Assembly: GCF_002355735.1 (NCBI RefSeq)
Contig: NZ_AP014879.1
Span: forward strand, 2,573,501-2,637,500
Direction of reading: 5' to 3'
From: Sulfuricaulis limicola
Lineage (GTDB): Bacteria; Pseudomonadota; Gammaproteobacteria; Acidiferrobacterales; Sulfurifustaceae
Length of the DNA: 64,000 nt
Shown here: positions 7,172 to 57,054 of the stretch, one piece after another
Numbering within the stretch: position 1 is the first letter of the stretch
Layout: each line of letters begins with the position of its first letter
Program-made: the position numbers and the translations under genes
The notes under the pieces: model-generated
What the model was told of the DNA's origin: nothing
Database searches by the model: none
Seen by the model: only the letters and a program-made list of their open reading frames with translations

Positions 7172-7843
7172 ATGGCCATCAAGATCAACGAAAAAATCAC
7201 CGCGTACGAGGTCGTCAAGGAAGAGCCCAAGCGCGTCGAGAACAACGTCGTGCACATGCACGAGAAGCTCGAACGGCCCGAGGTGCTGGTCGGTTCCACC
7301 TACAAGATCAAGACCCCCCTCACGGAGCACGCCCTGTACGTCACCATCAACGACATCGTGCTCAACCCGGACACGCCGCACGAGAAGCGCCGGCCCTTCG
7401 AGATCTTCATCAACTCCAAGAACATGGATCACTTCCAGTGGGTGGTGGCCCTGACCCGGGTCATCTCGGCGGTGTTCCGCAAGGGGGGTGATGTCACCTT
7501 CCTGGTGGAAGAGCTGCATTCGGTATTCGACCCGCGCGGCGGCTATTTCAAGAAGGGCAAGTACACCCCCTCGCTGGTTGCCGACCTGGGCGACGTCATC
7601 GAGCGCCACATGAAACTGATCGGCCTGATCCAGACCGAGGAACCGGACGCGGCGCGCCAGCAGCTGATCGCCGAGAAGCGCGCCGAGCTGAAAAAGCGCG
7701 CCGCGGCAACGGAAACCGCCGCTGCCGATCCCTGCGACTTTCCCGCTGACGCACAGCTCTGCATCAAGTGTTCCACCAAGGCCGTCATCAAGATGGATGG
7801 ATGCATGACCTGTCTCAACTGCGGCGACTCGAAGTGCGGATGA
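7172..7843 (+). CDS. Class II ribonucleotide reductase C-terminal subunit (TSCPD domain, NrdJb-like)
   Basis: 223 residues. The middle holds a TSCPD domain (GGDVTFLVEELHSVFDP, then GGYFKKGKY), and the C-terminus carries a cysteine cluster, CIKCST then CMTCLNCGDSKCG. In single-chain NrdJ these cysteines shuttle electrons from thioredoxin to the active site, so this protein probably completes the reductase made by the preceding gene. The start at 7172 has GGAG seven bases upstream. The 86-nt gap to nrdJ has no terminator, consistent with one transcript. The splitting is known in Pseudomonas; assignment as the partner rests on adjacency and domain content. Confidence 0.85.
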   Translation: MAIKINEKITAYEVVKEEPKRVENNVVHMHEKLERPEVLVGSTYKIKTPLTEHALYVTINDIVLNPDTPHEKRRPFEIFINSKNMDHFQWVVALTRVISAVFRKGGDVTFLVEELHSVFDPRGGYFKKGKYTPSLVADLGDVIERHMKLIGLIQTEEPDAARQQLIAEKRAELKKRAAATETAAADPCDFPADAQLCIKCSTKAVIKMDGCMTCLNCGDSKCG

Positions 7844-8225
7844 TGTTCGTTGCAATGAACGAGCGAGACGAGAAGGCATCATCGTTGCGCAAAAAATCAG
7901 GACAAAGTGTTTGCAATTTTTTTTCCGTTGCTTTAATGTCTTGACACATCAGGTCACTGTGCTAGACATGAAGTGAACTTTGTATACGGATGTCACTGCC
8001 CGGATGACGGGATGCCGCGGAAGCAGATGAGCAAGATCGCGGCGCCGGGCGGAACCAGGATCAACCAAGAGTTAATGGATCGATTGCGAAGCTCGACAAC
8101 TGGTAGCAAAGATATCAGCACCCCCCTGCAGCAGTGTCTGGCTGCCAGGTCCTGTTCTTCCCGCTCTCCCCGCATACCCTTGTCCGCCGGTCATTCCCGG
8201 CGCACATCACTGTCCCGAATCCATG
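7844..8225. other. Gap after the reductase pair; possible small transcript
   Basis: About 380 bp without a supportable protein gene. TTGACA at 7941-7946 with TAGACA 16 bp downstream (7963-7968) is a possible but weak sigma-70 promoter. The next strong terminator is at 8226, so a transcript of about 280 nt could arise here. A 113-codon open frame spans 7973-8314 but crosses the terminator, has no recognisable domain and no good ribosome-binding site, so I do not call it. Confidence 0.35.
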
Positions 8226-8251
8226 AAAAGACGGCTGCGCGCCGTCTTTTT
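8226..8251 (+). terminator. Intrinsic terminator
   Basis: AAAAGACGGC at 8226-8235, a 5-nt loop, and GCCGTCTTTT at 8241-8250 followed by one more T form a 10-bp stem with a built-in U-tract. It ends transcription entering from the reductase side or from the putative small transcript and isolates the microgene downstream. Confidence 0.8.
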
Positions 8252-8336
8252 CCATTGGCAACGCGCAGTACCGTCGGGGGGTTTTGGCCCCTGACTTCCC
8301 TGCAAGTCCCTTAACCACAATCCAAAGGAGCTCATC

Positions 8337-8387
8337 ATGGCTAAGAAAAAAGCAGCCAAGAAAAAAGCAGCTAAGAAAAAGAAATAA
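8337..8387 (+). CDS. 16-residue Lys/Ala microprotein
   Basis: ATG at 8337 is preceded by AAGGAG (GGAG at 8327-8330, six bases upstream) and opens 16 codons ending in TAA. The peptide consists of one Met, five Ala and ten Lys in an AAKKK repeat, so it is extremely basic, like a piece of a histone H1 tail. The unit sits between two good intrinsic terminators (8226-8251 and 8486-8534), as expected for its own short transcript. Codons alternate AAG/AAA and GCA/GCC/GCT, not a simple nucleotide repeat. The function is unknown; nucleic-acid or polyanion binding is a guess. A non-coding role of the transcript is the main alternative. Confidence 0.55.
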   Translation: MAKKKAAKKKAAKKKK

Positions 8388-8485
8388 CGCGAGAGGCGAG
8401 GGGAGTTCGGATCGTAGCGCGTTCCGCGCCAAGCGCGGGGAGCAGTCGCTGCTTCGGATAACCTTACCGCCTTCGTTAGCGATAG

Positions 8486-8534
8486 CCGGTAACACCCGCC
8501 GCGGTTGAGGTTGGCGAGGTGTTACCGGTTTTTT
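8486..8534 (+). terminator. Intrinsic terminator
   Basis: CCGGTAACACC at 8486-8496 pairs with GGTGTTACCGG at 8518-8528 and is followed by six T residues (8529-8534). The enclosed 21 nt can form extra GC pairs. It ends the transcript carrying the microgene. On the other strand it lies beyond the end of murU, where it may also help. Confidence 0.85.
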
Positions 8535-8645
8535 ATTGCCCGTCTGACTGCCCGGTTGCCCGCGTCAGCGACGTCCCCATCCGGGTATTTTCGCCGCAAA
8601 GGCCCTTCCTGCCTACCCTGAATATTTTTATTTGAAAACAGCTGG

Positions 8646-10321
<1,676 letters not shown>

Positions 10322-10462: not shown

Positions 10463-12715
10463 ATGCCTCGTTGCCGCCTGATTCGCGCCGCCCTGTGCCT
10501 GATTGTTGTCACGGGCGCGGGCTTGGCTTCGACGGTGCGGGCCGGAGACACGGCACCCTGCCCGGAGCGCCCGCCACGGCTACCCGCCGCGGCGCGGCCT
10601 GGCATCGCGGTGACGGAAAATCCGCCGGCGGAGCTGTACGCCCGGGAACTGCGCCTGACAGGCGAAGGTGTCAGTGAATTCACCGGCGACGTGGAGCTGC
10701 GGCGCGACGGCCAGTCCCTCAGCGCCGACTACCTGCGTCACGACAAGGGCAGCAGCATGATCGACGCCACCGGCAACGTCACGTTCAAGGACACCTCCGG
10801 CCTGAGCTACCAGACCCAGGACACGCACATCAATCTGGGTTCGCGCACCGGTTACAGCGGCGCCGGCAGTTTTCGCTTTGAAGACGGTAGCGCCCGCGGT
10901 GACGCCGAGCGCATCGACTTCGAAGGCCCGGAATTCACGCGTTTCACGCGGGTGCGTTACACCACCTGCGCGCCGGGCCAGGACGACTGGTTTCTCAAGA
11001 TGAAGGAGCTCGAGCTCGACACCGAAGAGGACATCGGTACCGCCCACCACACCTCCATCAACTTTTATGGCGTGCCGGTGTTTTATCTGCCCTATCTCAG
11101 TTTTCCGATTTCCGATGAGCGCAAATCCGGCTTTCTGATACCGCGCCTGGGTCACGCCAGCAATCGGGGCCTCGAAATTGACACGCCCTACTATATCAAT
11201 CTCGCCCCCGATTACGATGACACCCTGACGCCCCAATACATGTCCAGGCGCGGACTGATGCTGCAAAACGAATTCCGTTATCTCACCCCGCGCTCTCATG
11301 GCACGCTGCAACTGGAGACCCTGCAAAACGACAGGCTCGCCAATGGCGACGACCGCGCGGCGGGCATCTACCAGCACACGACGGCCTTCAGTCCCCGGTG
11401 GTCCGGTTACGTGGATGTGCGCGGCGTGTCGGACAAACAGTATTTCGACGACTTCCGCGACGATCTGGGCGTCACCAGCCAGACCCATCTGCCGCAGAAC
11501 GCCGAGCTGGCTTATCACGGCCCGGTATGGAATTTCAGCGCCCGTGCCGCCGACTACCAAACCATCGACCGTTCCATCGTGCCCGCGGATCGTCCCTACG
11601 CACGGTTGCCCGAGTTCAATCTTTCACTTAACCGTCCGGTCGAATCCAATCGTCTCAATTATTCTTTCGAAAGCGAACTGGTGAGCTTCGAGCGCGACGC
11701 CAGTCTTACCGGCGAGCGCCTGAATCTGAGCCCGTCGGTGAGCCTCCCGTTATCCAACAGCTACGCCTTTCTGACTCCGATGATCGGGCTGCGACACATC
11801 GCCTACCGTCTCTCCAGCGTGCCGGATGCCACCCCGGCGCTGACGCGCGGCGTATTCAGTCTCGACAGCGGGCTCATCTTCGAGCGCGACTCGCGCTGGA
11901 GCGAACGCCTGTTCACGCAGACATTCGAGCCGCGCCTGTACTACCTCTACGTCCCCGGCAAAAACCAGGACGCCCTGCCGAACTTCGACACCGGCGTGCC
12001 CGACTTCAGTTTCTACAACCTGTTCCGTGACAACCGTTTCGTCGGTGGCGACCGCATCGGGGACGCCAACCAGATCACCGTCGCCGCCACCACGCGTTTC
12101 ATCGATCAGCAGGACGGCGTCGAGCGGGCGCGCGCCAGCCTGGGACGGATTTATTACCTCGCCGACAGGGAGGTCAACCTGCCGGCGGCCACCAGCGGCA
12201 CCGATGCCTCGGACATCGTGGCCGAATTCACGGCGACGCTCGCCAGCCACTGGCATGTGCGCAGCAGCGCCCAATGGAATCGCGAGGACAACTACACCCA
12301 GAAATACGGCTATTACCTGCAATACAATCCGGCGAAAGACCGCATCGTGAATCTCGGCCGGCGCTACTCACGCGGCGAACTGGAACAGACCGACATCTCC
12401 GCGGAATGGCCCTTCGCCGCGCGCTGGACCTTCCGTGGCCGCTCGCTTTACTCCCAGGAAAGCAACCGCAACCTGGAGAGCTATGCCGGCGTGCAATACA
12501 ACGCGTGTTGCTGGGCACTGCGCCTGATGGCAAGGCGTCGACTGGAGGTGGATGCGCTGAACAGCAATACCGCCACCGAACAATTTTCCATCATGGTTCA
12601 ACTTGAGCTGACCGGCCTCTCGCGACTCGGGCATATGCCGGGCAGCCCGCTGAGCGAAAGCGTGTTTTCCTTCGCGTCGCCGATGGCCGCTCCTCGGGCT
12701 TCCGGCGCGCCCTAG
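10463..12715 (+). CDS. lptD: LPS-assembly outer-membrane protein LptD
   Basis: 750 residues. A signal peptide occupies residues 1-27 (ending VRAG). An OstA/LptA-like N-terminal domain follows (LSADYLRHD, then DATGNVTFKDTSGLSYQT), then a long C-terminal beta-barrel. LptD with LptE inserts lipopolysaccharide into the outer leaflet. The Cys-Cys pair of the barrel end (YNACCWALR) matches the conserved cysteines that form disulfides to the N-terminal domain, and GQDDWF and YLPYLSFPISDERKSGF are family-typical. It heads the conserved lptD-surA-pdxA-rsmA series. Confidence 0.96.
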   Translation: MPRCRLIRAALCLIVVTGAGLASTVRAGDTAPCPERPPRLPAAARPGIAVTENPPAELYARELRLTGEGVSEFTGDVELRRDGQSLSADYLRHDKGSSMIDATGNVTFKDTSGLSYQTQDTHINLGSRTGYSGAGSFRFEDGSARGDAERIDFEGPEFTRFTRVRYTTCAPGQDDWFLKMKELELDTEEDIGTAHHTSINFYGVPVFYLPYLSFPISDERKSGFLIPRLGHASNRGLEIDTPYYINLAPDYDDTLTPQYMSRRGLMLQNEFRYLTPRSHGTLQLETLQNDRLANGDDRAAGIYQHTTAFSPRWSGYVDVRGVSDKQYFDDFRDDLGVTSQTHLPQNAELAYHGPVWNFSARAADYQTIDRSIVPADRPYARLPEFNLSLNRPVESNRLNYSFESELVSFERDASLTGERLNLSPSVSLPLSNSYAFLTPMIGLRHIAYRLSSVPDATPALTRGVFSLDSGLIFERDSRWSERLFTQTFEPRLYYLYVPGKNQDALPNFDTGVPDFSFYNLFRDNRFVGGDRIGDANQITVAATTRFIDQQDGVERARASLGRIYYLADREVNLPAATSGTDASDIVAEFTATLASHWHVRSSAQWNREDNYTQKYGYYLQYNPAKDRIVNLGRRYSRGELEQTDISAEWPFAARWTFRGRSLYSQESNRNLESYAGVQYNACCWALRLMARRRLEVDALNSNTATEQFSIMVQLELTGLSRLGHMPGSPLSESVFSFASPMAAPRASGAP

Positions 12716-44760: not shown

Positions 44761-44947
44761 CGCCCCCTGCGGTGCGCGTGATTGCTCCAGTTATCCTCTG
44801 AACCTATAAGTGCTTTTAACGGGAGCCGGATTGTAGATGCCGTTGTGCAAGCCCGCCTCGTAGCGGGAAGCCTGAAGCATCTCTGAGGCACCCAACTTGG
44901 ACCTCACGGTTCAAGGCTACGGGGCAACACGGCATCTGCGGAGGGCG
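44761..44947 (+). ncRNA. ssrS: 6S RNA
   Basis: The position between zapA and the 5-formyltetrahydrofolate cyclo-ligase gene is the conserved 6S locus. The ends pair (CGCCCCCTGCGG with CTGCGGAGGGCG), giving a closing stem for a rod of about 187 nt. The 3' half has GAAGCCTGAAGC and the ACTTGGACC...GGTTCAAGG block like E. coli 6S. A -10-like TATATA is at 44746-44751. 6S RNA traps sigma-70 RNA polymerase in stationary phase. Ends are estimated by pairing. Confidence 0.85.
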
Positions 44948-44963
44948 TCTTTATTTTTCCGCA

Positions 44964-56194: not shown

Positions 56195-56461
56195 ATGAAA
56201 AAGTCACTGATCAGCCTGTTTGCCCTGGCATTCGCCATGATGTTCGGCATGGTGCACGTCGCCAGCGCGATGAAGCATGAAGCCCCGGCCGGCGCTGCCG
56301 CGGCGGAAGCCAAGAAAGAGGCGAAGCAGGAGAAGAAAGAGAAGAAGATGAAGAAGAAAGCCGCCAAGAAGGAAGAGAAGAAAGAAGAGATGAAGGGCGC
56401 GGCCCCGGCAACGCCGGCCACCCCGGCCGCTCCTGCGACCCCGGCCGCTCCTGCCAAGTAA
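56195..56461 (+). CDS. Small secreted Lys/Glu/Ala-rich protein under sigma-54 control
   Basis: 88 residues. A clear signal peptide (1-25, ending VHVASA) leaves a mature chain of about 63 residues. That chain has three zones: an Ala-rich start, a highly charged middle with alternating Lys and Glu (about residues 39-66, e.g. KKEEKKEEMKG), and a PATPA repeat tail. There is no fold motif, so it is probably extended or helical and disordered. AAGGAG lies 13 bp before the ATG. An intrinsic terminator follows at 56487, so it is a single-gene transcript from the sigma-54 promoter. It has some likeness in composition to acid-shock-type periplasmic proteins, but I do not assign it. A function in the envelope is inferred from export and from regulation. 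Confidence 0.8.
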   Translation: MKKSLISLFALAFAMMFGMVHVASAMKHEAPAGAAAAEAKKEAKQEKKEKKMKKKAAKKEEKKEEMKGAAPATPATPAAPATPAAPAK

Positions 56462-56523: not shown

Positions 56524-57054
56524 CTACTTCTTCTTGGGCGCGACTTTTTTCTTCGCCGGTTTGGCGGCGGTTTTCTTCCCGGCCTTTTTCGCCGGGCTTT
56601 TCCCGGCCGCCGGGGCCTTGGCGCTGCGTACGCGCTCGATCAGCCCGCGCAAATAGTCCATATACTTCTGTGTATTCGCCACCGCGGTTTTGGCGGCGTC
56701 GATGCCGGACTCGCCCGGCTTGAGCTGGCGGTAGGCCATCTCGATTACGTCCTCATCCAGGCCGGCAAAACGTCCCGCCGCCGGACCGGCCAGGCGACAC
56801 ACTTCCTTCACGCTGGCCTTGGCCCGCAGGTTGATTTCGTGCAACTGTTTGGCACGGCTCGGCCCGACCCAGCTCACGATGGTCCATTGACCACCCGGTG
56901 CCCCGGGCTTGTCGAGGAAGTCCTGCCATACCTTGCTCGCGGCCTGGCAATCCTTGGTGACGCCTTCAAGGCGGGCCAGCACGTCGGCGCGCTGCTTGCC
57001 GCGGTCGGCTTTCCAGCGCGCTACCAGGTCAATCGCTCGGTCCAAACTATCCAT
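56524..57054 (-). CDS. Protein of unknown function with histone-H1-like Lys/Ala tail
   Basis: 176 residues from the ATG at 57054, which has GGAG seven bases upstream; the frame is open to 57336 without support. Residues 1-135 are helical and contain no domain I recognise (MDSLDRAIDLVARWKADRGKQ-type start, WTIVSWVGPSRAKQLHEI). The last about 40 residues are Lys/Ala/Pro repeats (AKKAGKKTAAKPAKKK) like eukaryotic H1 tails or AlgP. DNA or RNA binding by the tail is likely; the role is unknown. It is convergent with the Lys-rich secreted-protein gene. Confidence 0.75.
   Translation of the reverse strand: MDSLDRAIDLVARWKADRGKQRADVLARLEGVTKDCQAASKVWQDFLDKPGAPGGQWTIVSWVGPSRAKQLHEINLRAKASVKEVCRLAGPAAGRFAGLDEDVIEMAYRQLKPGESGIDAAKTAVANTQKYMDYLRGLIERVRSAKAPAAGKSPAKKAGKKTAAKPAKKKVAPKKK

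Follow-up and report, generated by a model that had tools for sequence, protein, structure and literature searches.

A 16-codon Lys/Ala gene convergent with murU in Sulfuricaulis limicola, a putative miniature of the H1-tail-like proteins conserved across Acidiferrobacterales

Can an open reading frame of 16 codons, made up almost entirely of lysine and alanine, be a gene, and what would its product do? This question is raised by a locus in the 64-kb stretch of the S. limicola genome analysed here (hereafter the window). The usual length limits of gene finders exceed an ORF this short. Among the Lys/Arg-rich ORFs of 10-60 codons preceded by a Shine-Dalgarno sequence, it was the sole one found in the window. 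Its start pattern gave one match in the S. limicola genome (2,864,672 bases, one contig), and the reversed control gave none. The features of the locus are as follows.

7172-7843, + strand: upstream gene, an anchor outside the unit; it matches the C-terminal part of vitamin B12-dependent ribonucleotide reductase models, below their cut-offs
7910-7968, + strand: two overlapping sigma-70-like promoters (conserved block in the alignment of 31 upstream regions)
8076-8091, + strand: leader motif TGGATCGATTGCGAAG (CGATTGCG in 24 of the 31 aligned rows)
about 8226-8252, + strand: T1, terminator-like hairpin with a T-run (-16.2 kcal/mol for 8220-8260)
8274-8294, + strand: second leader hairpin, GGGG/CCCC type (-15.6 kcal/mol for 8266-8300)
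8305-8336, + strand: conserved unpaired leader end of the TCCCTTAACCACAATCCAAAGGAGCTCATC type, bearing the Shine-Dalgarno sequence AAAGGAG at 8324-8330 (upstream alignment)
8337-8387, + strand: 16-codon Lys/Ala gene, MAKKKAAKKKAAKKKK (ORF reading)
about 8485-8535, + strand: T2, terminator of the gene, CCGGTAACACC...GGTGTTACCGG followed by TTTTTT (-31.0 kcal/mol)
8646-9332, - strand: murU, convergent neighbour (NCBIfam NF045761, above cut-off)

The first-pass annotation had proposed a 16-codon Lys/Ala ORF with a good Shine-Dalgarno sequence and its own downstream terminator, and both parts were borne out: AAAGGAG lies six bases before the start, and T2 folds with the energy listed above. The peptide consists of 10 Lys, 5 Ala and 1 Met, written with six AAA, four AAG, two GCT, two GCA and one GCC codons. 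Lys/Ala stretches also occur at two other places of the window (derived from genome coordinates), namely at about 56354-56371 (+), in a small Lys/Glu/Ala-rich protein bearing a signal peptide, and at about 56572-56589 (-), as the tail of a larger protein.

To follow the ORF in relatives, the upstream gene was used as an anchor, which could be located in 17 of the 20 genomes available for the window's family. At all 17 loci, the Lys/Ala ORF is 14-21 codons long (examples are MAAKKKAKKKAPKKK, MAKKKAKKAAKKKK and MAAKKKAKKAKKKAAKKKK), and all length changes are whole codons. Comparison of all pairs within the family gave 318, 260 and 785 differences at codon positions 1, 2 and 3, the repeats leaving the codon alignment unsure toward the N-terminal side. 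The uncorrected pN/pS for all pairs of related sequences of this family, a ratio that carries no probability, was 0.136/0.671 = 0.20. In the last nine codons, the differences by position were 12, 12 and 212 in 13 of the 17 rows, which were selected by their C-terminal peptide and are thus biased to few amino-acid changes. The same anchor gave 18 matches in a set of 30 genomes (three of them from the window's family), one match being a contig-end fragment. Of the remaining 17 loci, 16 showed a Lys-rich ORF at first reading and L067 did so later; the ORF of L067 leaves its contig with an odd tail, possibly through a sequence error.

Frameshifting indels in relatives, which the first-pass annotation had named as evidence against the peptide, were found in none of the 33 complete ORFs of the 34 loci, the 34th being L067. 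Asp and Glu are absent from all 33, the repeat starts at residue 2 or 3, and Pro occurs in four ORFs, once in each. Given the whole-codon length differences, the bias by codon position and the pN/pS of 0.20, we consider it nearly certain that the ORF is a real protein-coding gene under coding selection. The earlier proposal that the peptide rather than the nucleotide repeat is selected is strongly supported by these features and by the presence of the ORF at all 17 anchored family loci. Charge and composition are kept (high Lys, much Ala, no acidic residues), and the exact sequence, order and length are free.

The gene is found well beyond the window's family. The upstream anchor had no match in the eight genomes searched of family f2, which has 18, and the f2 loci were anchored on murU instead (22 of 23 genomes matched, some through weak paralogues). 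A Lys/Ala/Ser/Thr-rich ORF was present at all 18 f2 loci, with 83-99 residues in 17 of them and 49 in one. The ORFs have 18-26 residues in family f7, 21-30 in f5, 79-93 in f6, and 98 and at least 101 in f4. The length at one locus across the order ranges from 14 to 99 residues, varying by repeat number, and the long relatives resemble H1 tails, for example (AKKK)n of 98 residues.

Altogether, 54 loci of the order Acidiferrobacterales were read; 52 of them have a Lys/Ala-rich ORF at this position, and the contig ends there in the other two (L104 and L112 of family f1, both without the ORF and with the contig stopping less than 200 nt from murU). Apart from these contig ends, no orthologue is missing; it should be noted that the search demanded Lys-rich ORFs, so that a gene without this Lys content would appear as missing. 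Counted by genomes, the gene is present in 52 of 57, and G004, G005, G006, G038 and G050 yielded no judgeable locus. murU was located at 52 of the 54 loci and is convergent with the Lys/Ala ORF at all 50 loci having both, at a distance of about 120-715 nt. A single small gene, encoded on the strand of murU, intervenes in both L046 and L079. amgK adjoins murU in the window, L021, L023 and L079, and lptD is present in the window and L079; among these three neighbours the profile check covered murU only, and the other two names were read from translations.

Based on these results, the 16-codon gene reads as no orphan but as the smallest form of a histone-H1-tail-like family, which is represented at this locus by versions of 79-99 residues in three other families of the order. 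A MurU tree built to follow the direction of the length change (40 of 52 matches used, 12 short or stop-bearing ones dropped) has no resolution at the deep forks and is compatible with one or several origins of the short forms inside the order. Separately from the murU-side gene, long proteins with Lys/Ala-repeat tails (open frames of 310-380 residues) were seen in L019, L020, L026 and L045, from other families of the order, upstream of a gene read as hemB.

We conclude that this is a real, conserved gene whose general kind is known but whose size is extreme: an ORF below common gene-finder lengths is nonetheless kept across an order, and the H1-like Lys/Ala class extends down to about 15 residues. 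Our literature search found no report of this Lys/Ala gene, and papers beyond the scope of the search may exist. With one locus, a fixed context and a natural length series, the question of how much polycation is enough becomes testable.

How is so short a gene expressed? Promoter 1 consists of TTGCAA (7911-7916) and TAATGT (7934-7939), and promoter 2 of TTGACA (7941-7946) and TAGACA (7963-7968), the -10 boxes of both being our reading. The second promoter pattern was matched in 30 of 33 loci. All 18 f2 loci have TTTGCA 233-299 nt ahead of the ORF, followed 34-35 nt later by TTGAC at 16 of them. The promoters persist in f2 next to a different upstream gene, which makes it most likely that they serve the Lys/Ala gene. 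In the window, the promoters precede the ORF by about 370-430 nt, and the leader length derived from sequence is roughly 200-370 nt. A generic scan of the window listed neither these promoters nor T1 nor T2.

The first-pass annotation had described the gene as isolated between two terminators. Both hairpins exist and enclose no further gene, but the promoters sit upstream of T1, and the description is misleading in this respect. With the promoters placed there, T1 probably belongs to the leader of the Lys/Ala gene instead of marking the border of its transcript. Downstream of T1, the second hairpin is trailed by a T-run in some relatives. In 27 of 31 rows, the leader end contains a string of the TAACC type, in a stretch of the type CTAACCACAACC-AGGAG, and a G-rich arm with a T-run was found 3' of the ORF in 30 of 33 loci by a lax pattern. 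A search for antiterminator pairing with the T1 arm was negative (z < -1.65 in five of 25 loci, mean z -0.39, with a crude two-base-block shuffle).

The T1 pattern is present in 26 of the 33 loci of f1 and f4-f7 and in none of the 18 f2 leaders, although by eye L105 of f2 carries another terminator-like hairpin; the leader motif is likewise absent upstream of the ORF at all 18 f2 loci. As f2 lacks both, we read the leader of the non-f2 families as an attenuated or sRNA-bearing addition. To look for the motif outside the order, 369 genomes of the class were searched; it matched in five, of which two belong to the family and three have unrelated ORFs. Of 26 stretches with the motif in genome_contigs, 14 belong to the Lys/Ala gene family, at least 13 of these in records (named or Proteobacteria) of the order's kind, and the other 12 are other Lys-rich or unrelated ORFs.

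A possible small RNA at 7970-8252 (+) is suggested by the conserved promoters, the motif TGGATCGATTGCGAAG and T1. Rfam at the gathering score gave no known RNA family at the Lys/Ala gene stretch; at a permissive threshold, the best candidate was Plasmid_R1162 with an E-value of 4.6, which we took as chance. Elsewhere in the window, a 6S RNA is located at 44761-44948 (+) (Rfam RF00013, 104.7 bits), followed by genes read as ygfA, another gene, an EVE-type gene and a peptidyl-prolyl isomerase.

We suggest that the product is probably a nucleic-acid-binding polycation, the short end of an H1-tail-like family at a fixed locus convergent with murU. Transcription would start from the promoters at 7910-7968, and many transcripts would end at T1. 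A fraction that reads through or is processed would then be translated into the ten-lysine peptide, which, like H1 tails and AlgP-type repeats, would bind DNA or RNA through its charge. Rather than a folded protein, such a peptide would be a counter-ion for RNA or DNA, similar to polyamines but encoded by a gene. The combination of a kept charge with free order and length suits charge-driven binding to a polyanion, and a passage of PMC9239181 describes binding of DNA in vitro by AlgP KPAA-repeat peptides. One point against this explanation is that T1 and the second hairpin separate promoter from ORF, an unusual arrangement if the protein is to be highly expressed. It is also possible that the 16-residue form may be too short for what the long ones do. 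A more detailed version, which we put forward tentatively, is a free-standing H1-like polycation of 14-21 codons in whole families, with conserved tandem promoters, a long attenuated leader and a terminator, condensing RNA or DNA at a dose set by read-through of T1. If true, few of the known conserved genes that stand alone would be as small as this one, and the natural series of 14 to 99 residues could be used to ask how short a working H1-like tail can be.

Other explanations should be weighed against this proposal. The unit may be mainly a regulatory RNA (promoters, motif, T1), the peptide acting on that RNA or being its by-product. This dual function fits the conserved parts of the leader, namely the promoter, the mid motif (24 of 31 rows) and T1, as for a small RNA, and small basic proteins of the CcaF1/DUF1127 kind are described as RNA-binding and linked to small RNAs in PMC10253847. 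Compared with column shuffles, the consensus fold was clearly better for eight genus-level leaders (-65.3 versus -28.0, sd 5.3), and for the ORF-bearing part it reached -94.6 versus -44.5 (sd 4.3), terminators included in both; for five f7 leaders, however, the gain was only modest (-58.1 versus -50.1, sd 3.9). The absence of an Rfam match and the coding selection on the ORF also speak against it. Moreover, f2 keeps the ORF and promoters and lacks the T1 pattern and motif at 18 of 18 loci, which indicates that the RNA part is dispensable and the ORF is not, and we regard a dual-function RNA as rather unlikely. An untranslated chance ORF within a conserved RNA is extremely unlikely in view of the third-position bias, the whole-codon length changes and a Lys/Ala content that persists while the length grows sixfold. 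Ten Lys codons between a Shine-Dalgarno sequence and a terminator could also suggest a lysine leader peptide controlling a downstream gene by attenuation. This was rejected mainly by gene orientation: murU, the next gene, is on the opposite strand in all 50 loci placed, and no same-strand gene lies close downstream of T2, the next + strand gene of the window beginning near 10463. As relatives also reach 99 residues, such a leader has next to no probability.

Two further proposals concern the partner of the peptide. Ribosomal or ribosome-associated micro-peptides are exemplified by eL41 in eukaryotes and bTHX in bacteria, and size, charge and one fixed locus are compatible with such a role. A range of 14 to 99 residues with a free repeat number is ill-suited to filling one pocket, and we consider this role very improbable. 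The first-pass annotation had also listed polyphosphate among the suggested ligands. AlgP provides the precedent for a peptide that binds polyphosphate as a partner of its granules: part of PMC9239181 reports its H1-like tail and its association with polyphosphate granules. PPK1 was found in five of the eight genomes of the order tested, two of them in the window's family, and the absence of polyphosphate kinases is thus patchy in the order. By Pfam profile search, neither PPK1 nor PPK2 was found in the complete genome of S. limicola (G000), in G014 or in G045, which all bear the gene, and other polyphosphate routes are possible there. The gene persists where the kinases were not found, which separates the Lys/Ala protein from polyphosphate, disfavours this ligand and makes an AlgP-like granule partner improbable. 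The candidate ligands left are DNA, rRNA and mRNA.

A polycation that binds nucleic acids is the reading we prefer, and the next question is to which known proteins it is related. Up to an E-value of 10, no Pfam family matched four orthologues of 26-98 residues (three long, one of 26), a search in which low-complexity matches may be lost to the HMMER filters; the peptide of the window, with its 16 residues, is too short to be scanned. NCBIfam gave no model for three orthologues. Because neither collection matches the long relatives, the H1-like label describes composition. By composition, the gene would fall in the broad class of H1-tail-like bacterial proteins: Lys and Ala dominate without acidic residues in 33 of 33 ORFs, and the length of 14-99 residues varies by repeat number.

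By testable features, the gene reads as neither AlgP, PhaF nor Hc2. With the C-terminal tails of AlgP and PhaF of Pseudomonas (KPAA repeats, H1-like), it shares Lys/Ala-rich repeats, high charge and free repeat number. In AlgP, however, a helical N-terminal part is combined with a tail of 154 residues and a repeat that contains Pro, whereas the Lys/Ala gene lacks the N-terminal part, has hardly any Pro and encodes 14-99 residues beside murU. Membership in AlgP/PhaF was rejected, as the repeat starts at residue 2 or 3 and Pro is found in only four of 33 ORFs; nor does working with polyphosphate kinases in the AlgP manner fit the three genomes without PPK1 or PPK2. Hc2/HctB of Chlamydia and the H1-like proteins of Bordetella and relatives likewise have Lys-rich repeats and a length that varies by repeat number, as stated in a portion of PMC2848022. 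Hc2/HctB has 165-237 residues in Chlamydia and a 36-residue element that was not seen in the Lys/Ala orthologues, and the Pfam histone-H1-like models for Hc1/Hc2 matched none of the four orthologues. The CcaF1/DUF1127 proteins, in the part of the literature consulted, are also very small, basic and tied to small RNAs, but DUF1127 is a defined domain, without a match in the three long and one 26-residue orthologues.

Comparable starts (MAxKKxxxKK after a Shine-Dalgarno sequence) were found in 35 of 229 Gammaproteobacteria genomes, at 43 places, of which 30 were read. Of these loci, 28 encode 65-510 residues, several with an extra domain, and only the window and L156 fall under 60 residues. Long proteins with a composition of this sort are thus common in the class. 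In L156, which belongs to another gammaproteobacterial family, a 22-codon Lys/Ala ORF, MAAKKKAAKKKVAKKKVAAKKK, lies at 1513-1581 with its own promoter-like and terminator-like sequences, flanked by genes read as an EVE-type gene and rpiA. Since this short form sits in another family and at another locus, miniature Lys/Ala forms may have arisen more than once.
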